Source: Ectothiorhodospira lacustris (GTDB lineage Bacteria; Pseudomonadota; Gammaproteobacteria; Ectothiorhodospirales; Ectothiorhodospiraceae). From it: DNA of 64,000 nt. The stretch lies in assembly GCF_022227845.1 (NCBI RefSeq), contig NZ_JAJNQN010000001.1:62001-126000 (forward strand), given 5' to 3'. A program made the position numbers and the translations under genes. This document shows, piece after piece, positions 37,371 to 54,224 of the stretch (its first letter is position 1; each line of letters opens with the position of its first letter). The notes under the pieces were generated by a model. The model had not been told where the DNA came from and did no database searches. It was given only the letters and a program-made list of their open reading frames with translations.

Positions 37371-37796
37371 CTACCCGCCCCAGCCGTATTGCTCGAAGAA
37401 GTCGGGCAGCATGTCCAGCATCTCATCCCGGGTAAAGAATCGATCAGCCCGGGCCAGACGCATCTGGTCCTGCAGATCCTCGTCCCCGCCGAAGCAGAAT
37501 ACCGGGATGTTGATCTGATACTCCGTCCTCAGCATCCGGATCACGTCCAGGGGATCGAAGGCGTCGCCCCCTTCCAGGTCCAGCAGCACGAAGCGATGGA
37601 GCAGGATGTCGTTCCAGTCTCCCAGTTCCGCCAGCTCCGTGGCCACCACCCGGGTCCAGCCGATGGGGGCCACCATGTCCAGATCGGACAGCAGCGACTC
37701 CCGAGCGGTCATGACGATGAACCTGCGATCCAGACGGGATTGAATGGTAGGCCGGCGGCTACCGGTCTGTTCACGAAAAGTACCTGAAGTAGACAT
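37371..37796 (-). CDS. Unknown protein with receiver-like fold, end of sHdr cluster
   Basis: I do not recognise a named family. The sequence alternates hydrophobic strands and helices like a CheY receiver: RRFIVMTARESLLSDL, then HRFVLLDLEGGDAF (an acidic residue at the phospho-acceptor strand), IRMLRTEYQINIPVFCFGGDED, and a final ADRFFTRDEMLDMLPDFFEQ. Conserved receiver Thr/Ser and Lys positions are not obvious, so it may be a pseudo-receiver. About 141 aa from MSTSGTFREQ (37796); GAGGAG lies about 13 bases upstream. Last gene of the long minus-strand sulfur cluster, 140 bp after the radical SAM gene. Confidence 0.6.
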   Translation of the reverse strand: MSTSGTFREQTGSRRPTIQSRLDRRFIVMTARESLLSDLDMVAPIGWTRVVATELAELGDWNDILLHRFVLLDLEGGDAFDPLDVIRMLRTEYQINIPVFCFGGDEDLQDQMRLARADRFFTRDEMLDMLPDFFEQYGWGG

Positions 37797-37936
37797 CACT
37801 GTGCGCCGACTCCTCGCGGATATCACTGACCGGGACAATCCTGACTCCCCTCATAGCCTTTAACTCTAGACTTATTCCATGAAAGGTCAAGTCTCCCATG
37901 CATCTCCCCCCGCGGGCGCCTCAACACAGGTCACAC

Positions 37937-39088
37937 CTATGCGTCACCTTCATGGTCGAAGGTACCGATATCCTCCCCCGCCATCTGACGTCGCACGAAG
38001 GCCACATCCTGGTCCGACAAGGCAAACGGGAAGGACATGATGTCCGTGGGACTCGAATCCCCATACGGACGGTTGCAGGCCGAGATCTCGTCATCGGAAT
38101 GCCCGGGGCAACCGGAGGTCTGAAACGGACGACCGGAAGCGATCAGGGCCTCCAGTTCCTGGCGATCCAGACCGAAATCCACCACCCGCCCCTGCCCGTT
38201 GAAACCCATGTCCTGCACCCGCACCCCGCGATAGTCGATCAGGAAACGGGCCAGCTGCACCCGCCGCCACTGGTCCCGGGGCGCCGGCGACCAGTCCTCC
38301 ATCAGGGAACCCTGTTCCGGGAAGAAGGCAAACAGATGATTGTGCCCACCCATGTCGCAGATGCGCTGGCAGACCTCCAGCATCTCCCGCTCCGTCTCCC
38401 CCATGCCGCAGATGAGATGGGCACCGAAACGCTCCGGGCCGTAGATCTCGGCGGCCCATTCCAGGGCCTGCCAGTAGGTCCCCCAACGATGGGGGCTGTC
38501 CACCGACGCCCCCCGGGTGCGCTCGAAGACTTCGGGCGTGACGGCGTCCAGGGCGACGGTGAAGATCTGGGCGCCGATGTCCCGCAGTCGCACCAGGTCG
38601 TCGTAGCCCATGGTGGTGGGGTTGGACAGGATGGAGGCCGGGATATGGGGCACCGCCTGCACCCACTTATCCAGCAGGATGGCGGTGTCCTCGTCCGAAT
38701 CCGGATGGGTGATCATGGAGATGCACATGCGCTCGAACCGTCCCTGGTCGGCCCCGTTGCGAATGCGCTCGATCACGTCATCATAGCGAGCCGTGGGCCA
38801 GTCCACCCGGATGAAGTTACGGTCGGCATAGTCGCGGGATTCCTCCCGGTGACGGGCCAGGCCGCAGTAACTACAGTTGGCCCGACAGCCTTCCGGATAG
38901 GTGACCAGCAGATTGAGGCAATGGGTGCAGCGGGTACGGTGCATCCAGCCCTTGACCAGTCCCAGGGTGATGGCGGCGGCAGTGGACATCTGCACATATT
39001 CCGGGGAACGCATCCGGGGCGTCTTGATGTACGGATCCGGACGATAGAAATTGACCGGGATGTCCCGGGCATCGGCGGGGGTGCTCAT
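37937..39088 (-). CDS. Radical SAM protein, lipoyl synthase component (LipS1/LipS2 type)
   Basis: Radical SAM enzyme of biotin/lipoyl synthase type. The SAM cluster is CRANCSYCG (CxxxCxxC); further cysteines in CTHCL and a C-terminal CPGHSDDEISACNRP could hold an auxiliary iron-sulfur cluster as sulfur donor. In sHdr-bearing organisms two such proteins (LipS1 and LipS2) replace LipA and insert the two lipoyl sulfurs; I cannot say from sequence alone which of the two this is. 383 aa. It starts on the last four bases (ATGA overlap) of the FAD oxidoreductase gene. Confidence 0.82.
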   Translation of the reverse strand: MSTPADARDIPVNFYRPDPYIKTPRMRSPEYVQMSTAAAITLGLVKGWMHRTRCTHCLNLLVTYPEGCRANCSYCGLARHREESRDYADRNFIRVDWPTARYDDVIERIRNGADQGRFERMCISMITHPDSDEDTAILLDKWVQAVPHIPASILSNPTTMGYDDLVRLRDIGAQIFTVALDAVTPEVFERTRGASVDSPHRWGTYWQALEWAAEIYGPERFGAHLICGMGETEREMLEVCQRICDMGGHNHLFAFFPEQGSLMEDWSPAPRDQWRRVQLARFLIDYRGVRVQDMGFNGQGRVVDFGLDRQELEALIASGRPFQTSGCPGHSDDEISACNRPYGDSSPTDIMSFPFALSDQDVAFVRRQMAGEDIGTFDHEGDA

Positions 39089-40239
39089 ATGGGTATCCGC
39101 TCCTCGGTGGTCGGTGCTGGTGTGTGTGATCCCGGCTCGCGGGCAGGAGGGTCCTGCAGGTATTCGGGGAAGGCGATCCAGCCGCGACGGTGGGGGGCAT
39201 CCTGATCCAGCGCCGACACCCGCCAGGCGGCGATCAGCTCGCGACGCCGGGCCACGGCGCGGTCCAGGCCGGGCTGATACAGGTCGCGGATCTCCTCGTC
39301 ATAGTCGACCAGGGCCCCATCCTCGCCCTGCAAATATGCCACAGCGGCCCCCCCGGCCCGTTCGCCGGAGATCACTGCCGGGGCGATGCCGCCGCCGGTA
39401 ATGGGATGGGTCAGGCCCGCCGCATCGCCCACGAACAGCACCTCACCATGGACCAGGACACCTCGCAGGCCGCCCACGGGAATGGCCCCGCCGGTACGGC
39501 GCAAAATCTTTGCCCCGACCCGCCCTTCCCGCACCAAGGTGCGATGCAGGGCATCCAGGGGTGCCTTCAGATCCGGGGTCAGGCGCTTATCGATCCCCAG
39601 ACCCAGATTGGCTTCGCCCTTCTTGGGAAAGAGCCATGCGTAGCCGCCGGGATAGTCCCCGGACAACCAGATGTCCGTCTCTGCATGAACCTTGAGCAGT
39701 GGCACGGTGTACTGTCGGGTCTGCACCAACTCCAGGGCCGGCAGCCCCAGATGGGCCGCCACCGAAGAATGGGGGCCATCCGCCGCCACCAGCAATCGGT
39801 AGGTGACGGATGTCATCCCGCCTCTTTGCCGAACCCGGGCCACCCGGGCCACCGGGTCCAGTCCCACCAGGGTCGTGCCGGTCCAGAGCCTTGCGCCGGC
39901 CCGCTCGGCCTGCCGGGCAATGGCCCGGTCAAAGGCACCCCGATGAATCATGATCCCGGGAAAGTCACTGTCGTGGCGAACGCCCGAGGGTAGATAGGTG
40001 CTCATCCCGGTGATGGGCTGACAGTACACGGCCGCATCCCGGGCATGACACCCCATGGGCAGCGGAATGAACTCGGCGCACTGCACCGGCTCTCCCACCG
40101 CGGCCCGACGCTCCACCGCCAGCACCCGGGCGCCGCCCTCGGCCGCGATCCGGGCGGCGCTGCCCCCCCCCGGCCCCAACCCCACCACCAGCACGTCAAC
40201 CGGAAACACGGGGCTCTGCCCTTGCAGACGCCGGGTCAC
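39085..40239 (-). CDS. FAD-dependent oxidoreductase, geranylgeranyl-reductase-like (LipT candidate)
   Basis: Flavoprotein with an N-terminal FAD site VDVLVVGLGPGGGSAARIA and a second FAD motif VLFVGDAAGLTHPITGGGIAPAVISGE, as in the geranylgeranyl reductase family. GYAWLFPKKGEANLGLGI is also typical of that family. Genes of this kind sit between the two lipoyl-synthase radical SAM genes in sHdr clusters and have been proposed (as LipT) to supply electrons. Its start (GTG at 40239) overlaps the ligase by 44 bases; a GTG at 40209 preceded by AAGGGCAGAG is an alternative. 384 aa. Confidence 0.8.
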   Translation of the reverse strand: MTRRLQGQSPVFPVDVLVVGLGPGGGSAARIAAEGGARVLAVERRAAVGEPVQCAEFIPLPMGCHARDAAVYCQPITGMSTYLPSGVRHDSDFPGIMIHRGAFDRAIARQAERAGARLWTGTTLVGLDPVARVARVRQRGGMTSVTYRLLVAADGPHSSVAAHLGLPALELVQTRQYTVPLLKVHAETDIWLSGDYPGGYAWLFPKKGEANLGLGIDKRLTPDLKAPLDALHRTLVREGRVGAKILRRTGGAIPVGGLRGVLVHGEVLFVGDAAGLTHPITGGGIAPAVISGERAGGAAVAYLQGEDGALVDYDEEIRDLYQPGLDRAVARRRELIAAWRVSALDQDAPHRRGWIAFPEYLQDPPAREPGSHTPAPTTEERIPI

Positions 40240-41302
40240 GGGAGTCCAGGGACTTGCGCAGGACCTGCAGGAAATCCTCCCGGGAGAGCATCAGCATCTC
40301 CACCCGATAGGCATCGAAGAAGCGGTGGATATTCGCCTCCAACTCCGCCACCGGCGTCTCCTTGAGAGACGCCTCCAGATCCACCAGCATGCGCCGGGGG
40401 TTCATGAAAAAGTCCCCGGTGATCCAGACCTGACGGATGATGCCCCGGGCCTCATCCAGCATCACCCCGGCACGCATGAGACCACCTTGGCAGCGATGCA
40501 CCGCCTCCAGCAGGGGCATGCCCCCTTCCGGGCGATTGCGCTGGTAAACCCATTCTTCGCTGTCGATCTCCGCCAGGGCCTGGGCAAAGTGGTTCTGCTC
40601 CCGCGAATTCAGGTTATCCGCCGGTACCAGATCCACCTGGAAGGCCTCGGCAAAGGCCTCGGCCAAAGCGGACTGGACCCGCGCCAGGGGCGGCGGCTCG
40701 CCCAGCAGTTCCCGCAGGTTCGTTACCCGCTCCCGGGCCGAGGCAATGGCCTTGTCGGAGAGTTTTTCTGCCGGGATGCGCAAAACCCTCAGCATGCGTT
40801 CCACATCGAAGTCGATGAGCAGGGTGCCCTGGTACATGATGGAGTTGCCGTCAAAGGCCCCGCCGGTGCCGGAGATCTTGCGTCCCGCCACCTCGATGTC
40901 GTTGCGGGGGCGGTAGCGGGCGTCCACGCCCAGACGGCGGATGCCGTCCGCCGCCGCCTCGCAGATGCGACGGGCGATCTTCCCCATGTCGGCGGTGCCC
41001 AGAAAGCGCCGATCCACGTACAGCTCCCAGCCGATCTGACCGGGATCGAAATAGATGGCACCACCGCCGGTGATGCGGCGCTGGATGTCGATCCCCTCGG
41101 CAAGACAGCGATCGATCCGCAGTTCCTGCGCCACGTTCTGGTGGAAGCCCACCAGGGCACAGGGCTCAAAGCGCAAAAAACGCAAGGTATGGGGGCTATG
41201 CCCCGCCTGATGACACTCCAACAGAGTCCGGTTCAGGGCCATATTCTCGGCGGCCCGGCGCAGACCGGTGTCCAGGACTCTGAGATTGATCTTTTCCGAC
41301 AT
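40196..41302 (-). CDS. Lipoate-protein ligase of the sHdr system (sLpl(AB) type)
   Basis: Biotin/lipoate ligase fold: RFEPCALVGFHQN, RRITGGGAIYFDPGQIGWEL (lipoyl-AMP site) and RNDIEVAGRKISGTGGAFDGNSIMYQGTLLIDFD with the catalytic lysine, then an accessory LplB-like C-terminal domain (about residues 240-350). It should load octanoate or lipoate onto the lipoate-binding proteins nearby. I start at MSEKINLR (41302), preceded by GGGAG; six residues shorter than the longest frame. 368 aa. Followed by the FAD oxidoreductase with overlap. Confidence 0.85.
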   Translation of the reverse strand: MSEKINLRVLDTGLRRAAENMALNRTLLECHQAGHSPHTLRFLRFEPCALVGFHQNVAQELRIDRCLAEGIDIQRRITGGGAIYFDPGQIGWELYVDRRFLGTADMGKIARRICEAAADGIRRLGVDARYRPRNDIEVAGRKISGTGGAFDGNSIMYQGTLLIDFDVERMLRVLRIPAEKLSDKAIASARERVTNLRELLGEPPPLARVQSALAEAFAEAFQVDLVPADNLNSREQNHFAQALAEIDSEEWVYQRNRPEGGMPLLEAVHRCQGGLMRAGVMLDEARGIIRQVWITGDFFMNPRRMLVDLEASLKETPVAELEANIHRFFDAYRVEMLMLSREDFLQVLRKSLDSRDPASARAEPRVSG

Positions 41303-41337
41303 CGGTCCACTCCCATTCATGCTTGATATTCACCCGG

Positions 41338-41370
41338 CACCCCAACCCCTCTCCCACAAGGGGTGAGGGG
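41338..41370. repeat. Short intergenic repeat, copy 1
   Basis: CACCCCAACCCCTCTCCC followed by an inverted CCCCT/AGGGG pair lies in the 79-bp gap between the radical SAM gene and the ligase. The same core occurs at 42597-42614 on the other side of the radical SAM gene. This motif type is common between genes in many GC-rich proteobacteria. Confidence 0.55.
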
Positions 41371-41381
41371 CTTAACCGGGA

Positions 41382-42533
41382 TCATGAACGCGCCATGGCG
41401 GCCGGTGCCTGGGCGACGACGGGGATGCCGGCTAGCCCCCGAGGTGTCCGGCGCCGGTGCTCGTCCGCCAGGATGGCTTCCAGATCCAGTTCCAGACCGG
41501 CCTGGTCATCGCCCAGCACCTCCTCGCCCACGGCCATGGAGCAGCAGGAAGGAATGACCCGAACCCGATACCCCAGCCGTGCCGCCAGTTCCACGGTGCC
41601 TTCGGCCGGGTGGGCCAGTCCGTTGATACCCGCCATCACCGCATAGGTATCGATCATCGCCTTCACCTCCCCCGGGGGGCGGGCGCACCCCAGCAACAGC
41701 GGTGTCCCGGGCAGGGCCTGGCGGGCATCCAGAAAGAACCTGCCCACCGCATCCGGGCTCGGCGTTTCGAAAGGCCGTTTCGGATTGGCATGAAAAGGCA
41801 TCACCACCACCAGCACCACCGCATCGGGAGTGTGACGCCGGAGCATCGCCAGGGCATCCCATTCTCCCAGAAAGCGTCCGTAGTGCAGCCCCATGACGAT
41901 ATGAGGCACCACCTTCATGGGGGTCTTCACCAGGTGTTCCAGGGTGGCCTCGAAATCTTCCACGCGGCGGCGCAGGTGATAGACCTGGGTGATGGTTTCC
42001 TGGGCACCGATCACATCCATCATGGCGGCATCGATGCCCGAATCGGCCATGCAGCGGGCGCCATCCTCGTCCACCAGGGCCGTGTGCAGGGCGATGCGAA
42101 ATTGGGGAAATTCATCCTTGATGCGGCGGATGATGTCGTAATAGGGGCCGTACTCCACCTCATTGCGGTGGTTGGAACCGCCGGTCAGCAGCATCCCCTG
42201 CCCCCCCTCCTCCAGCAATCGGTTCACCAGCGCCCACAGGGCCTCCGGGGATCGGGCAGGGATCATGGGCTCCAGCAGCTTGGCCTTGCAGTGGTCGCAC
42301 TGCAGCTTGCAATCGCCCCCGGTGATGGACACCGCGGGCCAGGCATGGCCGGCACAGCGGCTGATCTCGGTGGTCTGGTAGGACTTGAAGCTGGGGGTGT
42401 AGAAGTCGATGCGGGCATCCGAAGCCAACCCGTCGGCCGGATGCCGGGCCTGGAGACGGCGCACCAGATCAGGATTCAGGGACAGCTCTTCCAGGGCCTC
42501 GATACGGGCGGCCAGCGGGTACCAGTCGGTCAT
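41382..42533 (-). CDS. Radical SAM protein, lipoyl synthase component (LipS1/LipS2 type)
   Basis: Second radical SAM protein of the cluster. The SAM-cluster motif is CKLQCDHCKAK; other cysteines are in EISRCAGHAW, LGCARP and the C-terminal VIPSCCSM, enough for an auxiliary cluster. GGDC and GGSNHRNEVEYGPYYDII fit the radical SAM barrel. Works presumably with the other radical SAM protein to make lipoate on LbpA. The ATG at 42533 has AAGGA six bases upstream; 383 aa. It is bracketed by two copies of a short repeat. Confidence 0.82.
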   Translation of the reverse strand: MTDWYPLAARIEALEELSLNPDLVRRLQARHPADGLASDARIDFYTPSFKSYQTTEISRCAGHAWPAVSITGGDCKLQCDHCKAKLLEPMIPARSPEALWALVNRLLEEGGQGMLLTGGSNHRNEVEYGPYYDIIRRIKDEFPQFRIALHTALVDEDGARCMADSGIDAAMMDVIGAQETITQVYHLRRRVEDFEATLEHLVKTPMKVVPHIVMGLHYGRFLGEWDALAMLRRHTPDAVVLVVVMPFHANPKRPFETPSPDAVGRFFLDARQALPGTPLLLGCARPPGEVKAMIDTYAVMAGINGLAHPAEGTVELAARLGYRVRVIPSCCSMAVGEEVLGDDQAGLELDLEAILADEHRRRTPRGLAGIPVVAQAPAAMARS

Positions 42534-42589
42534 GGGAATCCTTGCTTGACGGTGGTTCTGTTGGCACGTTTTGCGGCGAACATCCCGCA

Positions 42590-42627
42590 CTCCCCTCACC
42601 CCAACCCCTCTCCCCGAGGGAGAGGGG
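42590..42627. repeat. Short intergenic repeat, copy 2
   Basis: Second copy of the CACCCCAACCCCTCTCCC motif, here with a longer palindrome (CCCCTCTCCC ... GGGAGAGGGG). It fills most of the gap between the lipoate-binding protein gene and the radical SAM gene. Confidence 0.6.
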
Positions 42628-42648
42628 CACTGGGTCAGCCGCCGCCGA

Positions 42649-43089
42649 TCAGGCACAGCCCTTGAAGCCGTCCGCGTCCATCTTGGCCTGGAAGGCCGCC
42701 AGCGCATCGGCGCCGGTCTTGAGGTCGACGGCATCGCCATCCCAGTCGGCGGGCTTGATCTTCACCAGCCAGCCTTCGCCGTAGGGATCCTGGTTGATCA
42801 GACCCGGACTGGCGGAGACGGCATCATTGACGGCCACCACCTCGCCGCTGATCGGGGTCTTGGCGGGACCCACCCACTTGCCGGATTCCACGGTGGCGCA
42901 GGACTTGTCCTTCTTCACATCCTTGCCGGCCTTCTTCGGGGTATAGGACACCACCTGCCCCGCCAGGGCACAAGCGTAGGCGGTCATGCCCACGGTCACG
43001 TTGCCGTCGTCGCCCCGGCGCACCCAGACGTTGTTGTCGATGCTGTACTGAAGCTCTTCCGGCAGATCACAGCCCTTGACTGCGCCCAT
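42649..43089 (-). CDS. lbpA: Lipoate-binding protein LbpA (GcvH-like), sHdr type
   Basis: GcvH-fold carrier whose lysine takes the lipoyl group; in the sHdr pathway it is thought to carry sulfur for oxidation. The lipoylation site is ATVESGKWVGPAK with Lys 71. Residues VKGCDLPEELQYSIDNNVWVRR and GQVVSYTPKKAGKDV match the sulfur-oxidation LbpA group rather than glycine cleavage. 146 aa from the ATG at 43089 with GGAG upstream. Second of two such carriers here; 110 bp after the dsrE gene. Confidence 0.9.
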   Translation of the reverse strand: MGAVKGCDLPEELQYSIDNNVWVRRGDDGNVTVGMTAYACALAGQVVSYTPKKAGKDVKKDKSCATVESGKWVGPAKTPISGEVVAVNDAVSASPGLINQDPYGEGWLVKIKPADWDGDAVDLKTGADALAAFQAKMDADGFKGCA

Positions 43090-43199
43090 GATTATCTCCT
43101 TTTCGAGTATTTGAATATTACCCATTGCAGTATATCGAGTCTCCCGGCGACGGCGATGGCCCCGAGGTGATGCAGGTCAAGACCTGCCACCCTGCCCGT

Positions 43200-43610
43200 T
43201 CAGAAGGTGATCAGCTTGTCACAGTCCAGCACCAGATCCGCCAGATCACTGGCACGGGCCACGTGATCCACCTCCGGGATCAGGTCGGCATCCGGGTCCA
43301 TGTCATAGCCGGGCATCGCCGGCTCACAGACGTGCAGCACTACCCCGGCCCGCTTGGCGTCCCGGATGAATTCGATGATGCGACGCCCACCCGGCATGGC
43401 ACACAGCGACTCCGCCACCCCCGTCTGCATCAGTCTCACCCCCTCCATGGTGAAAAAGATGTGTACCCGGGCATCCATGGCAGCCAGCACCGACCCCAGA
43501 TAGAAAGGGGTGGCACAGCGCGCCGGGGAGGAAGGACCGCTGGTCATGATGAAGACCACGGTCTGGTCTGCCTCCACATCATCCGGTGTTGCCGATGGTG
43601 TCTGCACCAT
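43200..43610 (-). CDS. DsrE-family protein between the two lipoate-binding proteins
   Basis: DsrE/F-like sulfurtransferase fold: TVVFIMTSGPSSPARCATPFYLGSVL (Cys 32), ARVHIFFTMEGVRLM, and a C-terminal CEPAMPGYDMDPD. Cysteines at 32, 70, 95 and 131; which carries persulfide is not clear. It differs in sequence from the DsrE protein at the other end of the cluster. 136 aa, AAGGA ribosome site. Five bases after one lipoate-binding gene and 110 bp before the other, so it may pass sulfur to those carriers. Confidence 0.82.
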   Translation of the reverse strand: MVQTPSATPDDVEADQTVVFIMTSGPSSPARCATPFYLGSVLAAMDARVHIFFTMEGVRLMQTGVAESLCAMPGGRRIIEFIRDAKRAGVVLHVCEPAMPGYDMDPDADLIPEVDHVARASDLADLVLDCDKLITF

Positions 43611-43615
43611 GTTCC

Positions 43616-44056
43616 TTACTCACGCCCGCAGTGGATGTCGTCCCGTTCGGCGCGGGCACAATAACCCGCCCTCGCCGCCTCCCCGGTCACGAAACGCCGC
43701 AGGGCGGCATCCAGGGGCTCATGCACCGCCACCCGGGCAATCCAGGCCCCGAAGGGGTCCTGGTTCAGCAGGGCCGGGGTCGCCATCACCGCCTCGTTGA
43801 TCTCCAAAATGGTGCAGTCCACAAAGTTGGGGACAGGCCCCGCCCACTTGCCGCTCTCGATGGTGGCCACCGGCTTGCCGGGGGGACGCCGGCTGCCCGG
43901 CCGACGCACCCGCACGTGCAGGATTTTGCCGGCGATGGCCTGGGACAGGTCGGTCATGCCGACGGTCAGGATATCTCCCGGTTCCCGGCGCAGCCAGACC
44001 TGGTACTCATCGTCGTAGTAAAGATCCGGATGGAACTCGCAGCCATTGCAATCCAT
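43616..44056 (-). CDS. Second lipoate-binding protein (LbpA paralogue)
   Basis: GcvH-fold protein with lipoylation motif ATIESGKWAGPV (Lys 70). The N-terminus MDCNGCEFHPDLYYDDEYQVWLRR has two extra cysteines. Unlike the neighbouring LbpA it carries an arginine/proline-rich insertion (HVRVRRPGSRRPPGKP, about residues 47-62) where the other has a lysine-rich loop, so its partner surface differs. 146 aa. Six bases separate it from hdrB2, tight enough for one operon. Confidence 0.87.
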   Translation of the reverse strand: MDCNGCEFHPDLYYDDEYQVWLRREPGDILTVGMTDLSQAIAGKILHVRVRRPGSRRPPGKPVATIESGKWAGPVPNFVDCTILEINEAVMATPALLNQDPFGAWIARVAVHEPLDAALRRFVTGEAARAGYCARAERDDIHCGRE

Positions 44057-44061
44057 AAACC

Positions 44062-44979
44062 CTAAATGACTCCCTTGTCCTTCAGAAAACCGATGGAATC
44101 ACTGACATTCTCGTGAATCCCCAGCTTGCGCGGGGACAGCCCCATGGACAGGCCCAGCAGCTGGGTGAAGTAGACGATCTTCACATGGGTCTTGATACCA
44201 AACTCGGTCTCCGCGCGCACCTGGTGCATCTCCAGGCCCGAGTGACAGGTGGGACATTCAGTGGCGATCACCTCGGCCCCCGAATCCTCCGCCGCCTGCA
44301 AGAGATTCAGCACCAACTGGGTGGAGGTGTCGGAATCCGACAAGGTATGCGCACCGCCGCAACAGGCCGTCTTCAGCGGAAAATCCATGTTCGCCCCACC
44401 AACGGCCTCCAGCAGGTCATCCATGAAATGCGGCTTGTAGGTGGACTCGGAACCCGGCCCCTGATCCTTCTCCGGAAAGATCTGCCGGGGACGGGTGTAC
44501 ATGCAGCCGTAGTAGTTGGCGATGCGAATGCCGTTCAGGCTCTTCTTCATCCGGTCCTTGATGCCTTCAGGCCCTTTCTCTTCCATCAGCCACTCCAACA
44601 GATGCACCGTGCGAACATCTCCCTTGTACACCGGGTCGCCCGCCTTGCGGGCCAGGTCCTGCACCGTCTCCATGGTTTTTTCGGAGGTAGCAGTCTCGTA
44701 CTCGGCCTTCTTCAGGTTGTGGTAACAGCCGTTGCAGGGGGCCATCACCGTGTTCAGCCCCATCTGCTCGGTGGCGATGGCCAGATTGCGGGCGGACAGA
44801 TAGGTCTGCAGCATGGGATGGATGTTCTTCACCTCCATGGCACCGCAGCAGTTGTAGTCCTTGAGGTTGACCATCTCCATGTCCAGCGCCTTCACCAGCA
44901 CCCGGGTGGACTTGTCATAGGGGCCGGCGGAGCCTTCCAGGGCGCAGCCGGGATAGTACGCAACCTTAGCCTTAGCCAT
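44062..44979 (-). CDS. hdrB2: sHdr complex subunit HdrB2
   Basis: CCG-domain subunit of the sulfur-oxidising heterodisulfide-reductase-like complex. MAKAKVAYYPGCALEG is the usual start; two cysteine-rich CCG regions are visible (YNCCGAM with CNGCYHNLKKA upstream half, and TACCGGAHTLSD with ATECPTCHSGLEMHQ). These bind the noncubane iron-sulfur clusters in true HdrB. I start at MAKAK (44979), with GGAGG upstream; 305 aa. The longer frame to 45075 overlaps hdrC2. Start overlaps hdrC2 end by eight bases. Confidence 0.92.
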   Translation of the reverse strand: MAKAKVAYYPGCALEGSAGPYDKSTRVLVKALDMEMVNLKDYNCCGAMEVKNIHPMLQTYLSARNLAIATEQMGLNTVMAPCNGCYHNLKKAEYETATSEKTMETVQDLARKAGDPVYKGDVRTVHLLEWLMEEKGPEGIKDRMKKSLNGIRIANYYGCMYTRPRQIFPEKDQGPGSESTYKPHFMDDLLEAVGGANMDFPLKTACCGGAHTLSDSDTSTQLVLNLLQAAEDSGAEVIATECPTCHSGLEMHQVRAETEFGIKTHVKIVYFTQLLGLSMGLSPRKLGIHENVSDSIGFLKDKGVI

Positions 44980-45688
44980 GGGTGGCCTCCTTCTGTTCAC
45001 GCACATACTGCTTGAGCACCTCGCCGGTGCGTCCCCAGGACCGAGTTCTGGGGGCAAAGAAGAAATTGCGCGCAAAGCGCATCCCCAGACCTACCGGCAG
45101 ATGCTGCATCAGACGCACACCGAACACACGCAGCCACTGGGGCACCAGGGGTTGGCCGGTTTTCCTGAAGAAATTCAGCAACACCAGACTGTCCTCGATG
45201 CGGCCACGGGCATAGATCTGCTCGGTGAACTCCTCGTCGAAGACCCGGGACGGTGACTTGGGCGTGTGGCCCTCGTCCTCCAGCCAGTGTGACAGGGCCT
45301 TCATCACCCCTTCCGGGCGTACGTCCTTGGGGCAGATGCTCGTACACTTGTTGCAGGATACGCACTGCCAGATGATGTCCTTGTCCTTGATGATCTCCTC
45401 CTTGAGTCCGGTACGCACCGCATAGATCCAGTAGCGGGGATTAAACTGCACGTTCTGGGCGTACATGGTGCAGGAATTGGTGCAGGAACCGCACTGCCAG
45501 CAGCGGTGTACGTTCTCGGCACCCGGGTAGCGCTGGATGACGGCCTCGAAGTCATCATCGTAATCGGTGATGGTCCGGGGCGTGATCATAGTATTCCAGT
45601 GACCGGAAACATCCACACCGTCCACCACCAGGGTATCGTGGCGGAGCAGCCGCTCCGGTTCGATCAGGGATTTTTCGTGAATCGCCAT
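44972..45688 (-). CDS. hdrC2: sHdr complex subunit HdrC2
   Basis: Iron-sulfur subunit with two 4Fe-4S motifs: HRCWQCGSCTNSCT (Cys 63, 66, 69, 73) and WQCVSCNKCTSICP (Cys 109, 112, 115, 119), passing electrons between HdrA and HdrB. A C-terminal helical part follows. 238 aa. No membrane anchor. It lies 32 bp after the hyp gene and overlaps hdrB2. Confidence 0.92.
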   Translation of the reverse strand: MAIHEKSLIEPERLLRHDTLVVDGVDVSGHWNTMITPRTITDYDDDFEAVIQRYPGAENVHRCWQCGSCTNSCTMYAQNVQFNPRYWIYAVRTGLKEEIIKDKDIIWQCVSCNKCTSICPKDVRPEGVMKALSHWLEDEGHTPKSPSRVFDEEFTEQIYARGRIEDSLVLLNFFRKTGQPLVPQWLRVFGVRLMQHLPVGLGMRFARNFFFAPRTRSWGRTGEVLKQYVREQKEATHG

Positions 45689-45720
45689 GCTTTTCTCCGC
45701 AACACTTCATGCATCATGGG

Positions 45721-46542
45721 TCAGGCCGGACCCGCCTGATGCCAAGTCTCTTGACCCGCGGCGGCCATCGCGCCGCGCCGCTCGTCGATACCCAGCAGTT
45801 TGACCACCAGTTCCATCGGGTCCTGTCTGGCGCCGAAGTCCCCCTGCAGGATGCCCAGCCCCCCGGAAACGGAACGCACGTAGTCCGCGTAGGCCCGAGC
45901 CAGGATCAGGTCCGTGATGAAGGGTAGATCCCGGTAGAAACCGCTGGCGGAGAGGTGTGCGGCAAACCACTGACGCACCCCCTCCAGGGCCTCCGGTGTC
46001 ATCGCCAGGGGCAGGGTCTGCAGACTGTCGCTGCCCGGCACGAACTCCCGCACCGCACCGCTCATGGTCTGGGTGTCCCAGACCCAGCGGGTCATGAGGG
46101 GGATCGTTTCCGGTTCCCGGAAATGCAGCAGTTCCGCCCCCAGGTCCCAGGCCGCCCGCCGCAGCTTGCGCTCCGGCACCGGCAGACGGTCACAGAAGCC
46201 CTCCAGGCGCCTGAGCAAACCGCCTCGGCCGTAAACCAGCTCCAGCACGGCCTCGGCCAGGGCCTCCCGAGGCATCTGCCGCAACACTGGCCCCAGTCGC
46301 CGCCGGGCCGGAAAGACACATTCCAACAACAGCAGGGGCAGCTCCGGAACCAGGGCCGCGGGACGGACCCGGGGCAGGGCCTGGGCGAACAGGGCATGCT
46401 TGCTGCCCAGGGCGGTCAGGTAGTTCTCCACCCCGCCCCGCTCGCTCATGTCCTCCAGCAGGGCCGCCAGCTTGACGGCCGCCACCTTCTCATCCAGGCG
46501 GATGGACAGGGGCGCCGGGGTGATGGACTGATTCATCAGCAC
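45721..46542 (-). CDS. Conserved sHdr-cluster protein (Hyp)
   Basis: The hypothetical protein that sits between hdrA and hdrC2 in sHdr clusters; function unknown. Mostly alpha-helical, leucine-rich and poor in cysteine (VFP and GFCDRL regions), with no cofactor motif. 273 aa. One base separates it from hdrA, which supports a structural or assembly role in the same complex. Confidence 0.85.
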   Translation of the reverse strand: MLMNQSITPAPLSIRLDEKVAAVKLAALLEDMSERGGVENYLTALGSKHALFAQALPRVRPAALVPELPLLLLECVFPARRRLGPVLRQMPREALAEAVLELVYGRGGLLRRLEGFCDRLPVPERKLRRAAWDLGAELLHFREPETIPLMTRWVWDTQTMSGAVREFVPGSDSLQTLPLAMTPEALEGVRQWFAAHLSASGFYRDLPFITDLILARAYADYVRSVSGGLGILQGDFGARQDPMELVVKLLGIDERRGAMAAAGQETWHQAGPA

Positions 46543-46543
46543 C

Positions 46544-47596
46544 TCAGCCCGCCTTGCGCGTCAGACCATGCAGGTCCGCAATGGCGCGGGCACCGGCGGC
46601 CATGCCCTGGGAGATGGAGTCATCGATGGTCTCCGGTCCGTAGGCGGCCCCGCAGGAATAGATGCCGGGACGGGTGGTGCCGCAGGTATTGGTGTAATGC
46701 TCGCCGCGTTCGATAAAGCCGTGATTCTCCAGACTCACGCCGAACACCTCCGCGATCTCCGGATTGTCCATGTTGGGGTCCATGCCCACCGCATGCACCA
46801 CCATGTCGAAGGGAATGACGATGGGGCGCTTCACCAGGGTGTCCTCTCCCTTCAACAGCAGCCGGCCATCGGGCGCGGCGGTGACTTCGGCAATACGGGC
46901 CTTGATGAACTTGGTGCGGAATTCCTCCTGGGATTTCCAGTAGAAGCGGTCCTCGTAAAGGCCGAAGGTGCGGATGTCCATGTAATAAACGAACACCTGG
47001 GTCTTGGGCGAGAGCTCCTTGATCTCCATGGCCAGATTGGTCGAGACGGTACAACAGATCTTGGAACACCACTCGCGCCCGATCTGCCGGTCGCGGGAGC
47101 CCACGCACAGCAAGATGGCCACCCGCTCCGGGGTACGGCCATCGGAGGGACAGGCGATCTTGCCGGCGGTTACCATCTGCTCCACTTGGGTGGTGGTGAC
47201 CACGTCCGGGAAGGTGCCGAAGCCCCACTCGGGCTTGTTCACGGAATCAAAGTGGGTGAAACCGGTGGCCAGCACCACGGCACCGGCCTTGACGCTCTTG
47301 CCGTTGCTCAGCTTGGCAGTGAACTTGCCCGGCTCCCCGTTCAACTCCGTCACCTTGGTGCCCTTGTGGATGGCGACGTTGGCATCATCTTCCACCCGCT
47401 TGACCATGCGCCCGATGGCGTCCTTGGCCCATTCACCGGAGGGGACCAGCCGGGCATAGCCGGAGATGATAGGGGCGCCGCCCAGCACGTCTTCCTTTTC
47501 CACCAGCACGGCCTTGTAACCGACACCGGCCACCTGGGCCGCCGCGGACAGGCCGGCCGGTCCCGCACCGACGATCAGAACGGTATCCTGCATCAC
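46544..47596 (-). CDS. hdrA: sHdr complex subunit HdrA (FAD flavoprotein)
   Basis: Flavin-binding core subunit. VLIVGAGPAGLSAAAQVAG is the FAD site (GxGxxG at 10-15). The iron-sulfur region has CVGSRD (Cys 164) and CSKICC (177, 181, 182). The C-terminus GIYSCGAAYGPETIDDSISQG closes the flavin site. At 350 aa it is the short sulfur-oxidiser form that lacks the ferredoxin domains of methanogen HdrA. ATGA overlap of four bases with hdrB1, one base before hyp. Confidence 0.93.
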   Translation of the reverse strand: MMQDTVLIVGAGPAGLSAAAQVAGVGYKAVLVEKEDVLGGAPIISGYARLVPSGEWAKDAIGRMVKRVEDDANVAIHKGTKVTELNGEPGKFTAKLSNGKSVKAGAVVLATGFTHFDSVNKPEWGFGTFPDVVTTTQVEQMVTAGKIACPSDGRTPERVAILLCVGSRDRQIGREWCSKICCTVSTNLAMEIKELSPKTQVFVYYMDIRTFGLYEDRFYWKSQEEFRTKFIKARIAEVTAAPDGRLLLKGEDTLVKRPIVIPFDMVVHAVGMDPNMDNPEIAEVFGVSLENHGFIERGEHYTNTCGTTRPGIYSCGAAYGPETIDDSISQGMAAGARAIADLHGLTRKAG

Positions 47597-49011
47597 GCAT
47601 TACCCCCATAAGCGAGTTCGGGTTTGTAGAGATATTCGATATTGCCCTGCTCGACTTCCTTCAAATAGGCCTGGAAATTCTTCTTGGCCTCGGACCAGGA
47701 AATGCCCATCTTCTCCACCAGGTCCTCACAGGGTGAGGCATGCCACTGCAGCTGCACGATCTTGAGGGGGTCCGCCCCGCAGGCCAAGGCGGCGAACTGC
47801 ACCTCGGCCATGATGGGGATCTGGAAGTCCTGATCATGGGCCTTGCCGATCCACTGGTTCTTGTCCATGGTGGTGACACAACCGGTGTCGTTGGCCAGCA
47901 TGACATCGGCATTGGCCTCTTCCCGGGCCACGCGGATCTTGCGGTTCATGGTGAAGGAACGGGTGAACTCCCGCTCGGAGATGATGTGCCGAAAGCCAAA
48001 GCCGCAACAGTCGTACCAGGTGGAATAGTCGATTACCTGGGCGCCCAGGGCCTGGGCCATGGAAGTGATGATGGCGGTACGATTGCCGCCCAGGACGTCG
48101 GCGTCGTAGACGGCATCCTCGTGGATCATCTTGTAATAATGGCAGGCCACATGGGCGGTGGTGCGGATATGTGAGACATCAATCTTCTGCAGCTCCGAGG
48201 CGATGCGATGACGCATCACGTGTACCCATTCCGAGTAGTGGATGATCTCCTCGGGGATCACCAGCTTGCCGTCCACCAGCCGCCCCAGCTTGTCCAGGAT
48301 CTTCGTGACCTTCTCCCGCAACTGGGGGGATTCGACCAGGTACTTGCGGATCTCCTTGTAATTGCCGAAGGAAGTCCCGCAGTGGACCAGGGGATAGAAA
48401 TGACCCGGCCCGTGACCATGCGGCTTGCCGGAGACATAGGCTTGGTGGAAATTGCGTAGGAACACCGCCGCCAGGGACTCCACGTTGCCGATGCCGGAAC
48501 CGTGGTAGTTCCAAGCGGTGCAGGAGGTCTGGTCGGTCTCGTCCAGGTAGTCCTTGCCGGGCACGAAGCCGAACTCGTTCATGAACCACAGCAGGGAGGT
48601 GGGATAGCCGGGGATGTTGCCGCACTGGCCGCAGGACTTGTGGTGCCAGAGCTGGCGGGTAGGAATCTTCTTGTCCCAGCCGAACAGGGTCTTGACCATC
48701 TTGGGGTCATGCTGGTCCTCCACCCGGTGGATGATGATGTGGCCTTCCTTTTCCAACTCATACATGTGCTCGCGCACATCGTCCATGCGATCACCCAGGT
48801 CGACGGTGCGACGGTCCACGTGCTTGCGGACCCAGTCGGTGGCCTGGACGGCCTCATCGCGGGACAGCTGGGTCTGCTGGAAGAAGGCGCCGTGGCCGGC
48901 CACGCCCTGGCCGTCGGTATTGTGAAACCCGGGCTTCATGGCCCCGGGGCCGGTCCCCTCGGCGGAGGCATTATGCCCGCCGGGGGTATGATCTTTCTTC
49001 TTGGAAGTCAT
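47593..49011 (-). CDS. hdrB1: sHdr complex subunit HdrB1
   Basis: Large HdrB-like subunit. Cysteine-rich parts include HKSCGQCGNIPGYPTS, DQTSCTAWNYHG, AHVACHYYKMIH, YDCCGFGFRHI and LANDTGCVTTMDKNQW; compared with HdrB2 several CCG cysteines are missing, as is usual for the HdrB1 of this system. Residues 1-60 are a low-complexity Gly/His-rich leader. The ATG at 49011 is preceded by GAGGAG at good spacing; a GTG three codons earlier would overlap that site. 472 aa. Upstream of it lies a repeat island instead of hdrC1 directly. Confidence 0.9.
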   Translation of the reverse strand: MTSKKKDHTPGGHNASAEGTGPGAMKPGFHNTDGQGVAGHGAFFQQTQLSRDEAVQATDWVRKHVDRRTVDLGDRMDDVREHMYELEKEGHIIIHRVEDQHDPKMVKTLFGWDKKIPTRQLWHHKSCGQCGNIPGYPTSLLWFMNEFGFVPGKDYLDETDQTSCTAWNYHGSGIGNVESLAAVFLRNFHQAYVSGKPHGHGPGHFYPLVHCGTSFGNYKEIRKYLVESPQLREKVTKILDKLGRLVDGKLVIPEEIIHYSEWVHVMRHRIASELQKIDVSHIRTTAHVACHYYKMIHEDAVYDADVLGGNRTAIITSMAQALGAQVIDYSTWYDCCGFGFRHIISEREFTRSFTMNRKIRVAREEANADVMLANDTGCVTTMDKNQWIGKAHDQDFQIPIMAEVQFAALACGADPLKIVQLQWHASPCEDLVEKMGISWSEAKKNFQAYLKEVEQGNIEYLYKPELAYGGNA

Positions 49012-49055
49012 GTGTGCCACTCCTCTACTACGCTCGACTTTGGTACTTAGGCAAG

Positions 49056-49484
49056 GGATATTCCGAATAAGTCATTCGCATAAACTCCGCATAGGTCACC
49101 CTCGCAAATCCTCCGCCCGTCATCCCCGCAAATTCCCCGCCCGTCATTCCCGCACCCTCCCGCACGTCATTCCCGCGAAAGCGGGAATCCAGTGACAAAC
49201 TGAAAACCCTGGACTCCCGCCTTCGCGGGAGTGACGCTGAAGACGTCATCCTCGCAAATCCTCTGCCCGTCATTCCCGCAACCCCCCGCCCGTCATTCCA
49301 GCAACCCCTCGCCCGTCATTCCCGCGAAAGCGGGAATCCAGTGACAAACTGAAAACCCTGGACTCCCGCCTTCGCGGGAGTGACGGTAAAAGGCCTTCGC
49401 GGGAGTGACGGTAAAGGGCCTTCACGGGAATCACGGCAAGAAACCTTGACGGAATCACGGCGAGGGCTTTTTCAGAACTTCCCA
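49056..49484. repeat. Repeat island interrupting hdrC1-hdrB1
   Basis: The 483-bp gap between hdrC1 and hdrB1 is almost all repeat. It holds two identical 72-bp palindromic units (49165-49236 and 49314-49385), partial copies of their CGTCATTCCCGC arm, and edges resembling terminal inverted repeats (GGATATTCCGAATAAGTC from about 49056; CTTTTTCAGAACTTCC ending about 49482). The open frames through it are periodic translations of the repeat, not genes. Confidence 0.85.
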
Positions 49485-49494
49485 CCGGTCCGGC

Positions 49495-50178
49495 TCAGTC
49501 TTCTTCTTGTTCTTCGAGCCATTCCTCGTATTCCTCCCTCTTCTCTTCGATAAAGTCCTCAATCACGTCAAACAGGTTCTCATCCATCAGTTCCAGGGAC
49601 TTGAGTACCCCGGTCATCTCCCAAATGGTGTACATCTCCACCGAGGTCTTCAGGGAGATTTCCCAGGCGGTGTCCGTGGTCTGCAGGGTCTTCATGGGGA
49701 TGGCCTTGCGCAGGATGCGCAGGTCGCCGTCCACCTTCTGGATGTTCGGACCCCAGTCGGGAAAGTGATCCGGCTGGATCATGTCCGGGGAGAGCTGGTT
49801 GCCGGTGGTGATGAGCTTGAGCATCACCCGACCGAAGGGCCTCAGTACGTCCTTGGCGGACTGCATCTCGTGCTTGATGGCCACCTCCCGCATGATGGCC
49901 ACCAGGCCACCGGGAGAATTCTTGAAGGGACAGCGGGCGGCGCAGGTCATGCACTGAGCACAGGCCCAGATCTTCTCCTGCATGGCGTCGTACACCTGCT
50001 CCACGTTCTCGGTCCACAGAAGCTGCACGATCTCCCGGGGGCTGTAGTCGTAGAACTGTGCCGACGGGCAGGTGGCGGTGCAGATCCCGCAGTTCAGACA
50101 CCCGTTGAGCTCATGGTCGTAGCGAAAATCGCTGCGGATGTCGTCGAATACCTGTTGCATTTCGGCGTAAGTAGCCAT
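49495..50178 (-). CDS. hdrC1: sHdr complex subunit HdrC1
   Basis: Iron-sulfur subunit with 4Fe-4S motifs NGCLNCGICTATCP (Cys 27, 30, 33, 37) and WACAQCMTCAARCP (Cys 73, 76, 79, 83). The tail is very acidic (EEKREEYEEWLEEQEED). 227 aa. First hdr gene in the direction of transcription. In related clusters it is directly followed by hdrB1; here a 483-bp repeat island intervenes. Confidence 0.92.
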   Translation of the reverse strand: MATYAEMQQVFDDIRSDFRYDHELNGCLNCGICTATCPSAQFYDYSPREIVQLLWTENVEQVYDAMQEKIWACAQCMTCAARCPFKNSPGGLVAIMREVAIKHEMQSAKDVLRPFGRVMLKLITTGNQLSPDMIQPDHFPDWGPNIQKVDGDLRILRKAIPMKTLQTTDTAWEISLKTSVEMYTIWEMTGVLKSLELMDENLFDVIEDFIEEKREEYEEWLEEQEED

Positions 50179-50397
50179 GGCATACCTCGTCTTTCATTGC
50201 CCGGAGAGATATCCTTACACCCAAGCAAAATTGTCAACCATTAACGTTCAGCGAGTGTAGTTCATTTTCTCGTTGACGCGCCGATCACGGGCCTCCGGTG
50301 CGGGAACCCGACCCACCGACGTCAATGGATTCGGTTCAGTGTCCCGCCCCCGCCTGCGGCCGAGGACCGCGCCCACAGGGAGTACAAAGGATCGCGG

Positions 50398-50865
50398 CTA
50401 GACGAACAGACAGATGTCGGACTCGCCCGCAAACTCGAAGAAGGTGGCGGCACCGCCGTATTCCACGCCATCAATGAAGTCATCCCGAGACATGTCGAAC
50501 AGATCCACCGTCATCTGGCAGGCGATCATCTTGACGTCCGCCTCCTGACACATCGCGCGCAGTTCTTCCACGCCGGCCACGCCCTTGGACTTCATCTTCT
50601 GCTTCATCATGTAGGTCATCATGGCCTGCATACCGGGCAGGGCCTGCAGCAAGACCGGCATCGGCAACGGCATGGGCATGCCGGGATTACCCAATGAGGT
50701 CACTTTCAGATCGGGGCTCTTTTTGAGCAGTTGTAGGCCATAAAAGGTGAAGAACACCTGCACCTGGTAACCCAGGGCGGCTGCGGTGGAAGCCAGGATG
50801 AAAGGCGGGTAGGCCCAGTCCAGGGTCCCCTTGGTGGCGATGATGGCCAACTTCTTCTCAGACAC
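50398..50865 (-). CDS. dsrE3A: DsrE3A-like sulfur carrier
   Basis: DsrE/DsrF-family sulfurtransferase paired with TusA. MSEKKLAIIATKGTLDWAYPPFILASTAAALG is the family start, VQVFFTFYGLQLLKK the second strand, and ADVKMIACQMTVDLFDM contains the persulfide cysteine (Cys 116); Cys 106 and 152 are also present. A methionine/proline-rich central loop is typical of the DsrE3A group. 155 aa. 83 bp downstream of tusA. Confidence 0.88.
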   Translation of the reverse strand: MSEKKLAIIATKGTLDWAYPPFILASTAAALGYQVQVFFTFYGLQLLKKSPDLKVTSLGNPGMPMPLPMPVLLQALPGMQAMMTYMMKQKMKSKGVAGVEELRAMCQEADVKMIACQMTVDLFDMSRDDFIDGVEYGGAATFFEFAGESDICLFV

Positions 50866-50948
50866 GAGGCATCCCCTCCGTTATGCCTTGATAAAGCCCG
50901 AGGTGTACGTCCTGCCGCAGCCGGGGCGCGGCAGGACGGCGCCGCGGA

Positions 50949-51179
50949 TCAGGACTTACGTATCAGGAACAGGAACTTGCCGCCCTCATCCCGGTGTTCA
51001 AGCAATTCATTGCCGGTCTGCTTGGCAAAGGCCTCGAAATCCTTCACGGAACCCGGATCGGTGGCGATGATCCGCAATACCTGGCCGCTGTCCATGGATG
51101 CCAGGGATTTCTTGGCACGCAGGATGGGCAGGGGGCAGTTCAGCCCGGAGGCATCCAGTTCCTGGTCAAAATCGGACAT
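50949..51179 (-). CDS. tusA: Sulfurtransferase TusA
   Basis: Small sulfur carrier. The active cysteine is Cys 15 in ASGLNCPLPILRAKKSL, the TusA signature; GQVLRIIATDPGSVKDFEAF follows. The ATG at 51179 has GAGGAG nine bases upstream and gives 76 aa. First gene of the sulfur cluster on this strand, next to dsrE3A, so sulfane sulfur probably moves TusA-DsrE-sHdr/LbpA. Confidence 0.94.
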   Translation of the reverse strand: MSDFDQELDASGLNCPLPILRAKKSLASMDSGQVLRIIATDPGSVKDFEAFAKQTGNELLEHRDEGGKFLFLIRKS

Positions 51180-51341
51180 CTCGATTTTCTCCTCGTCTAT
51201 CAAGTGGTCTGGGGTCTCTTCGCCGACGCCCCCGATGGGGTCCTGCCGGCGCCCGCCCCGATCATCTCACGAAATTTCCCGTTATCGGACAGGGAAAACT
51301 TCAGTATTTTTTATCCGCCTACCAGAACGACTTGGGGAAGT

Positions 51342-51624: not shown

Positions 51625-52053
51625 ATGAGAACAATTCCCACAACCACTGAACGAAGAAATCAGGCCGCTGTCTCACCGGAAACACGCATGATAGTGTTCC
51701 CCAACACCAGCCCGGACGCCCAAAGCGGAGGAGCCCTCATCGTGGACAAGAAGCATTTTGCCGCCGATACCCAGTATGCTGTCACCTTGCGTGACGAACA
51801 TCGGCGCCTGCGCCCCGCCAACCTCTACGTGCATCGGCTCTTTGATGACAGCATGATCGCGCGCCGGACTGACGGCCCCCACTCAGGGCAGTTGTTCAAG
51901 ATCCGCTATGGGGATGTGGTTCGGATTGCACGGACCATCCCGGTGGACCAGTCCAAGCGTTTCATGCTGCCGGAGGCCATGCTTATGCCGAAACTATGGG
52001 AAAACCGCACCACCATGAACGCCTACGCCTCGGCCCCCGGCCTGGGCAAGTAG
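51625..52053 (+). CDS. Unknown protein beside sulfur genes
   Basis: I do not recognise this 142-aa protein. It has no signal peptide, membrane helix or cysteine. The centre (GALIVDKKHFAADTQYAVTL, FKIRYGDVVRIARTIP) predicts beta strands; charged residues are common. The ATG at 51625 has a purine-rich GAAGAAT upstream and follows an AT-rich promoter-like stretch; MIVFPNTS is a possible later start. It precedes the metalloprotease by 14 bp and may share its transcript. Confidence 0.6.
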   Translation: MRTIPTTTERRNQAAVSPETRMIVFPNTSPDAQSGGALIVDKKHFAADTQYAVTLRDEHRRLRPANLYVHRLFDDSMIARRTDGPHSGQLFKIRYGDVVRIARTIPVDQSKRFMLPEAMLMPKLWENRTTMNAYASAPGLGK

Positions 52054-52067
52054 CAGGCTCGCCCCCC

Positions 52068-53537: not shown

Positions 53538-53540
53538 GCC

Positions 53541-53571
53541 GGGGCTTGAGCATTGAGGCACATCAAGCCCC
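53541..53571 (+). terminator. Hairpin after the metalloprotease gene
   Basis: GGGGCTTGA (53541-53549) pairs with TCAAGCCCC (53563-53571), 13-base loop, directly after the stop codon. It separates the protease gene from soxYZ. Confidence 0.5.
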
Positions 53572-53707
53572 ATATAACCAAAAAGTACTTGTAAAAAAGA
53601 TTTAGTTAGGTAGGCTGTATCCCCAGAGAGCCCGCGGCAAGACCCCGCGTCGAAACAGGGCATCTCCAACCATGTAAAGAGTCGTGAGTGTGAGTGGAGG
53701 AGACCGC

Positions 53708-54175
53708 ATGAACAGCAAGCGTCGAGTGTTTCTCAAGGGCACCCTCGCGGCGGGCACCGTGGGTGTCGCCGTGGGCGCCGGCCTGCTGACCCCAAGTACC
53801 GTACTCGCCGACTGGCCCAAGGCCGCCTTTCAGGCCAACTCCCTGAGCGATGCCCTGAAATCCGCCCTAGGCTCGGACAGTCACAGCAGTGGTGACATCA
53901 CCATCCGTGCACCGGATATCGCCGAAAACGGTGCGGTGGTCCCGATCACCGTAGAATCCAGCCTGACCGGTGTCACCGACATTGCCATCCTGGCGGTCGC
54001 CAACAATGCCCCCCTGACCTCCAGCTACAAGCTGGGTGAAGGCACCAGGGCCTTCGTCGCCACCCGGATCAAGATGGGCGAAACCTCCGATATCGTCGCA
54101 GTACTCAAGGCCAACGGCCAGCTCTACAGCGGCACCAAAGAGGTCAAGGTCACCATCGGCGGTTGCGGCGGCTAA
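53708..54175 (+). CDS. soxY: SoxY, thiosulfate-oxidation carrier subunit
   Basis: Periplasmic carrier to whose C-terminal cysteine sulfur intermediates are bound. Twin-arginine signal SKRRVFLKGTLAAG precedes the cleavage region TVLADWP. The C-terminus ends KVTIGGCGG, the invariant swinging arm with Cys 153. 155 aa from the ATG at 53708, which has GGAGG eight bases upstream. soxZ follows after 49 bp. Confidence 0.96.
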   Translation: MNSKRRVFLKGTLAAGTVGVAVGAGLLTPSTVLADWPKAAFQANSLSDALKSALGSDSHSSGDITIRAPDIAENGAVVPITVESSLTGVTDIAILAVANNAPLTSSYKLGEGTRAFVATRIKMGETSDIVAVLKANGQLYSGTKEVKVTIGGCGG

Positions 54176-54224
54176 GAGCGCCCGACAACCGCGGCATCAA
54201 GGCGAATTCGCAGGAGAAAGCACC

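Follow-up and report, generated by a model that had tools for sequence, protein, structure and literature searches.

Predicted group I sHdr-LbpA operon with dedicated lipoate assembly genes in Ectothiorhodospira lacustris, and two candidate accessory genes at its end

Results

A sulfur oxidation cluster with lipoate assembly genes

We analyzed a 64,000-nucleotide stretch of the Ectothiorhodospira lacustris genome (contig NZ_JAJNQN010000001.1, positions 62,001 to 126,000; hereafter the window) and found on its minus strand, from 51203 to 37371, sixteen open reading frames (ORFs) that all run in one direction. Judged from its sequence, this cluster is almost certainly a group I sHdr-LbpA operon of Ectothiorhodospira with dedicated sLpl(AB)-LipS1/S2-LipT genes for lipoate assembly. 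It adds a new case of an already known type and its gene set is ordinary. The gene order is tusA, dsrE2, hdrC1, hdrB1, hdrA, hyp, hdrC2, hdrB2, lbpA1, dsrE, lbpA2, lipS1, sLpl, lipT, lipS2 and term, and neighboring genes overlap or are separated by at most 219 base pairs (bp), with the sole exception of a 474-bp gap between hdrC1 and hdrB1. A preliminary description of this DNA had reported a complete sHdr cluster with lipoate-building enzymes encoded beside the carrier. All fifteen genes that it named are present on the minus strand in the order it gave, and sLpl, LipS1, LipS2 and LipT are encoded in one cluster with lbpA1 and lbpA2. Three items were absent from that description: the sixteenth ORF, term (37838-37371), a remnant of a gene that we call c0 (37854-37771) and the repeats that fill the 474-bp gap.

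Membership of group I calls for hdrC1-B1-A-hyp-C2-B2 and at least one lbpA in a single cluster, and this arrangement was found with two lbpA genes. In group I the maturation genes also share an operon with hdr and lbpA (PMC6067878, section 5), and the gene coordinates place the lip genes on the same strand as hdr and lbpA with short gaps between them.

Fourteen of the 16 products scored over the curated Pfam cut-offs, and hyp and term, the last ORF, had no Pfam match at E 0.01. NCBIfam was run on 10 of the 16 products. The motifs mentioned below follow patterns that we take to mark these protein families. Among the sulfur carriers, tusA (50949..51203, likely ATG start at 51179) matched Pfam TusA with 88 bits and has its cysteine in NCPLP, and the first DsrE (50398..50865) was named DsrE2 by NCBIfam model NF047629 above its cut-off (294.7 bits vs 210). 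HdrC1 (49495..50178) has 4Fe-4S dicluster domains and HdrC2 (44972..45688) 4Fe-4S domains, with two 4-Cys motifs in each. HdrB1 (47593..49020) contains one CCG domain and HdrB2 (44062..44982) two CCG stretches, while hdrA (46544..47596) encodes a flavin adenine dinucleotide (FAD) protein with a Pyr_redox_2 domain. The hyp gene (45721..46542) is a conserved gene of sHdr clusters and is present in the published order. Both lipoate-binding proteins, LbpA1 (43616..44056, GCV_H 90 bits) and LbpA2 (42649..43125, GCV_H 126 bits), keep the lipoyl-lysine motif ESGKW intact, and LbpA2 also has a C-terminal cysteine. The dsrE gene between them (43200..43610) matched DsrE with 61 bits. LipS1 (41382..42533) and LipS2 (37937..39088), the radical S-adenosylmethionine (SAM) lipoyl synthase subunits, both scored over the cut-off of Pfam Radical_SAM with CxxxCxxC intact. 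The lipoate:protein ligase sLpl(AB) (40196..41320) keeps RRITGGG and GRK and has both of its domains, the LplA catalytic domain above cut-off (LplA-B_cat, 175 bits) and the LplB-like C-terminus, residues 275-358, below it (56.8 bits vs 65). LipT (39085..40239) is an FAD oxidoreductase with an FAD_binding_3 match and a GG-reductase superfamily match of 180 bits, above cut-off, and its gene has the position described in PMC10332631.

The genome (3.28 Mb, 49 contigs, completeness rating 99.93%) was searched for the genes that the preliminary description had named as informative. A gcvH gene is present apart from the two lbpA genes, and lipA and lipB are also present elsewhere, so the lipoate enzymes of the cluster constitute an additional lipoate system. 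Canonical lipoate enzymes occur in virtually all sHdr organisms analyzed (PMC6067878, section 5). A dsrABEFHC pathway elsewhere in the genome, combined with silent or degenerate cluster genes, had been named as grounds for doubting the cluster's role. No match to dsrA was found in the genome with one model and both candidates scored, although this model gave sub-cut-off matches in 8 of 14 control genomes, and reverse Dsr was rejected as the actual pathway.

Known systems and relatives

The closest system, compared by its published description, is that of Thioalkalivibrio sp. K90mix (group I; eLife 2018, PMC6067878; PLoS Biol 2023, PMC10332631). As in the window, its lbpA1 and lbpA2 lie two locus tags apart (TK90_0638 and 0640), sLpl is TK90_0642, two LbpA types are present and the lip genes run lipS1-slpl-lipT-lipS2. 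The window differs in its genus, Ectothiorhodospira, in the 474-bp repeat stretch within the operon, in the internal deletion of c0 and in having no ligase between c0 and term. For Thioalkalivibrio the order hdrC1B1A-hyp-hdrC2B2-lbpA1-dsrE-lbpA2 is given in PMC6382920, and lipS1-slpl(AB)-lipT-lipS2 in PMC10332631. The second dsrE belongs to this published order and was rejected as an unexplained gene. The preliminary description had spoken of unexplained extra genes, which does not hold for this dsrE or for the FAD oxidoreductase, which is lipT; it does hold for the last ORF, which had not been singled out. In E. coli, LbpA is modified by the lip genes of K90mix as far as the mercaptooctanoyl stage and no further (PMC10332631). 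The shdr-lip locus of Hyphomicrobium denitrificans (PMC10332631, PMC6067878, PMC10451225) encodes the same enzymes as the window, and LbpA2 and sLpl(AB) are required for thiosulfate oxidation in this organism (PMC10332631). Unlike the window, it has a single lbpA (LbpA2) in the cluster, the order lipS1-lipT-lipS2-slpl(AB)-lipX and ArsR-type regulators.

About 20 kb aligned with two Ectothiorhodospira shaposhnikovii records at 89.5-89.9% nucleotide identity, and 16-19 kb aligned with three other Ectothiorhodospira records at 77-78%. HdrB2 is 96% identical to the two E. shaposhnikovii records. For comparison within the genus, PMC8877833 gives 90% average nucleotide identity between Ect. vacuolata and Ect. 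shaposhnikovii, which makes it likely that the window comes from a species next to E. shaposhnikovii. Gene order was compared in the best 80 named loci of 408 relatives (L and G numbers are our designations for loci and genomes). The order hdrC1-B1-A-hyp-C2-B2 was identical in 58 of the 60 named loci that extend 6 kb or more ahead of the hdrB2 start (exceptions L173 and L178), and lbpA1-dsrE-lbpA2-lipS1-slpl-lipT-lipS2 in 54 of the 56 with at least 7.5 kb past it (exceptions L170 and L178). A dsrE2 homologue between tusA and hdrC1 was less constant (32/60). Two loci, L042 (G005) and L046 (G031), keep hdr and lbpA1-dsrE-lbpA2 and have no lipS1-sLpl-lipT-lipS2 in the 18.9 kb read, which extends about 7.5 kb past lbpA2; the rest of these genomes was not searched.

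The ratio of nonsynonymous to synonymous substitution rates (dN/dS) was calculated against the two E. shaposhnikovii records by the Nei-Gojobori method using our own script, with gapped codons excluded. Values ranged from 0.011 to 0.287 across all 16 genes, and the aligned hyp region contained one stop codon in the L099 record and none in L100. These low ratios indicate that the cluster genes are not degenerate, and a degenerate operon, the other part of the doubt raised by the preliminary description, was rejected. That description had also proposed a phylogeny of each gene; a tree was made for LbpA, and for the remaining genes the comparison used identity and gene order. In the LbpA/GcvH tree of 43 rows the LbpA1 rows separated from the remainder with support of 97/95, and the GcvH row had a very long branch. 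The two LbpAs of the window fell on opposite sides, each beside E. shaposhnikovii, and so make up one LbpA1 and one LbpA2.

A repeat stretch between hdrC1 and hdrB1

The gap between hdrC1 and hdrB1 (49021..49494) is 474 bp here and about 43 bp in the two E. shaposhnikovii records. Measured to include the stop codon, the distance is 478 in the window, as against 47 in each of the E. shaposhnikovii records, and it does not exceed 196 across 61 named loci, among which the value for L178 is negative and meaningless. The stretch gave 82 matches in its own genome, itself included, many of them on both strands (40 of 194 candidates scored), and its predicted RNA fold was far better than that of shuffled sequences (z -9.4). 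It is a dispersed palindromic repeat that was probably inserted into the operon. No promoter was recognized in it. The scanned region held one terminator-like site, on the plus strand inside hdrB1, which is no more than shuffled sequences yield.

The c0 and term genes

The cluster ends with term (37371..37796), for which we chose the ATG at 37796 as the start; the frame is open from 37838. The product of about 127 amino acids was modeled by AlphaFold with a predicted local distance difference test score (pLDDT) of 88.7 and a predicted template modeling score of 0.84, and the model is a (beta-alpha)5 receiver domain. Its best Foldseek match was the receiver domain 3lte (E 1.4e-5), which was also matched by profile (E 1.9e-4). 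Like the receiver domains of response regulators, term is predicted to have the (beta-alpha)5 fold with an acidic residue where strand 3 ends, and this residue, Asp60, is conserved in 90% or more of 20 sequences. Unlike response regulators, it has no output domain. The other positions that we presume to be catalytic in a receiver are not conserved, namely the acidic pair following strand 1, the Thr/Ser following strand 4 and the Lys following strand 5, so the canonical phosphorylation site is incomplete. The second gene, c0, encodes in relatives a conserved protein of about 130 amino acids with a confident model (pLDDT 90.0). It had no Pfam or NCBIfam match, and Foldseek found no match to it in the PDB at E 0.001 or below. 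Re-scoring against the 1000 top Foldseek chains gave an uninformative best Z of 4.2 (root mean square deviation 5.0 over 77 residues), and the best hit of a PDB profile search (E 0.016) was not accepted as real. No description of c0 or term was found in the open-licence literature, including PMC10332631, PMC6382920 and PMC12423496, in which a description under another name would escape.

Both genes tracked sHdr closely. In a class sample of 369 genomes (this and the phylum sample below are subsets) hdrB2 matched in 81, of which 22 are true sHdr by a line of 64-100% identity that we set; the remaining 59 matches had at most 35% identity. In the 19 kb read, two of these low-identity loci, L055 and L056, contain HdrA/B/C-like genes and neither lbpA nor any lip gene. 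Of the 22 genomes with term, 20 belong to the 22 sHdr genomes (absent from G001 and G212) vs 2 to the 347 without sHdr, namely G380, which is 75% complete and congeneric with the sHdr-positive G172, and G158, in which the match was weak (E 4e-4) and had an in-frame stop. The sHdr genomes span 13 families and term was found in 12 of them. With at most 10-11 candidates scored per genome, c0 was detected in 19 of the 22 genomes with sHdr (missing from G001, G212 and the genome of the window) vs 1 of the 347 others (G380), and its genome set equals that of term minus G158 and the genome of the window. Fisher tests, in which relatedness is ignored, gave p values close to 1e-28 (term) and 1e-27 (c0). 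In a phylum sample of 388 genomes c0 was found in G412 only. Seven of these genomes had hdrB2 at 62% or above: the window's own, G412 (71%), and five that lie at 62-66% and gave no c0 match. One of six sHdr genomes from outside the class thus has c0, and by this distribution the two genes appear to be a feature of a single branch of the sHdr organisms. The G412 homologue (L183, near 9446, 38% identity) is on a different contig from the sHdr cluster, and neither term nor the divergent ligase described below was detected in the 19 kb read around it.

The two genes also keep company with each other and with a lipoate gene. In 39 of 40 term loci c0 was near term on the same strand, and the exception, L080, starts at a contig end; at least two pairs of these loci are one genome counted twice (L091/L134 and L095/L177). 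A divergent lipoate ligase was found just upstream of term in 29 of the 40, and in 28 of these it separates c0 from term; the match in L170 was partial, and all three ligases submitted to Pfam were LplA-B_cat. In L054 (G029) no lipS genes were present in the stretch read, and the divergent ligase followed by term lies some kb beyond lbpA2. A divergent ligase was not recognized in the E. lacustris genome, where LplA-B_cat gave three matches, the third being a 523-amino-acid ligase with a DUF116 domain. This protein is encoded next to a U32 peptidase gene on contig C16 (L181, 574-2145, minus strand).

Within Ectothiorhodospira, the order lipS2-c0-term was found in the E. shaposhnikovii, E. haloalkaliphila and E. 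marina records (L099-L102). In the window an in-frame deletion has removed the middle of c0 (37771..37854) and spared both ends, so that 27 codons remain where the L099 relative has 122-134 amino acids. By tblastn the remnant was seen as two pieces, 70% and 79% identical, which were the only significant ones in the window, and no c0 match was reported in the genome (11 of 19 candidates scored in one search and 10 of 19 in another). This deletion may be an assembly error. The ATG that directly precedes term in L099 has been replaced, with the in-frame ATG at 37796 available, and term is open with a dN/dS of 0.16-0.20. Two E. mobilis records (L148 and L152) have ilvI after lipS2 with both c0 and term absent at the locus, and neither gene was found in a whole-genome search of G001. 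The pair is therefore dispensable in some members of the genus.

Flanking genes

On the other strand, adjoining the cluster, 51996-56693 (plus) contains genes for an M48 peptidase, soxY, a soxZ-like frame and soxB. The soxZ-like frame between soxY and soxB was recognized by sequence only. Genes for periplasmic and cytoplasmic sulfur oxidation are therefore neighbors in this genome, with sox beside sHdr. A divergent ORF upstream of tusA (51625-52053, plus) matched no family above cut-off. A homologue of this ORF runs divergently to the cluster in 49 of the 57 named loci that contain tusA preceded by 2.5 kb or more of sequence, and 40 of the 57 have an M48 peptidase homologue.

Discussion

The way the cluster is likely to work is drawn from the literature on Hyphomicrobium, Thioalkalivibrio and Thermococcus. 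Periplasmic Sox proteins, encoded in part by the adjoining soxY, soxZ-like frame and soxB, would be the source of sulfane sulfur, which cytoplasmic TusA and DsrE-type carriers would hand to the lipoyl arms of LbpA1 and LbpA2. By analogy, the LbpA-bound sulfur would be oxidized to sulfite by the sHdr complex, which would replace reverse Dsr. For assembly of the arm, sLpl would put octanoate or lipoate on LbpA, and two sulfurs would then be inserted, with LipS2 acting first and LipS1 second and LipT probably supplying electrons.

Several results weigh against an sHdr-LbpA operon with its own lipoate assembly. The best NCBIfam models for the two radical SAM proteins were LipS1 (NF053742, 194.8 bits vs a cut-off of 230) and LipS2 (NF053743, 192 vs 270), both below cut-off, and the ligase scored 166.9 vs 280 with TIGR00545. 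HdrA (HdrA2 model, 227 vs 1100) and HdrB1 (HdrB model NF041780, 115 vs 450) were recognized and also fell under their cut-offs. The search for dsrA used a single model. The 474-bp stretch that splits hdrC1 from hdrB1 exceeds the corresponding gap in all 61 named loci measured, and the genes that follow it could be less expressed as a result. As an alternative, one could argue that the operon is silent or undergoing loss and that the repeat insertion, so much longer than the E. shaposhnikovii gap, the reduction of c0 to 27 codons and the replaced ATG before term are first signs of decay. However, all 16 genes are open with low dN/dS, the motifs are intact, and the two E. mobilis records keep the rest of the cluster though they lack c0 and term at the locus. 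We consider this alternative highly improbable.

The cluster end is more evenly contested. Co-occurrence with sHdr and the neighborhood of lipoate genes suggest a role for c0 and term around lipoylation or sHdr control, and we see an even chance that the two, often with a second, divergent lipoate ligase, are undescribed accessory parts of the gammaproteobacterial and betaproteobacterial sHdr-LbpA system, taking part in or regulating LbpA lipoylation or sHdr function. In this proposal term, going by its model, would be a stand-alone receiver-like protein with a degenerate site and c0 a highly conserved protein outside any recognized family, and Ectothiorhodospira would provide natural knock-outs, of c0 alone in the window and of both genes in E. 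mobilis. Alternatively, c0 and term could serve another chemolithoautotrophic function, for example in a cbbQ neighborhood, and be tied to sHdr by shared organisms. Eleven of the 40 term loci have, downstream, an ORF from the group that is represented in L086 by CbbQ, the pair in G005 is about 36 kb from hdrB2, and c0 in G412 stands apart from the sHdr genes with no term in the 19 kb read; the two E. mobilis records manage without both genes at the locus. Yet c0 directly follows lipS2 in L099-L102, L134, L139, L097 and several Burkholderiales or Betaproteobacteria loci, the divergent lipoate ligase is immediately upstream of term in most loci, and both genes are nearly absent from the non-sHdr genomes of the class sample, which leaves this alternative rather unlikely. 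The CbbQ-group ORFs, the copies that lie apart in G005 and G412, and the Ectothiorhodospira losses do disfavor a universal, essential role for c0 and term.

With this cluster, a member of a genus of phototrophic purple sulfur bacteria, itself with no match to dsrA, joins the organisms whose cytoplasmic sulfur oxidation probably needs sHdr and private lipoate machinery. If the association of c0 and term with sHdr is functional, a system already under experimental study would have components for which no description has been found.

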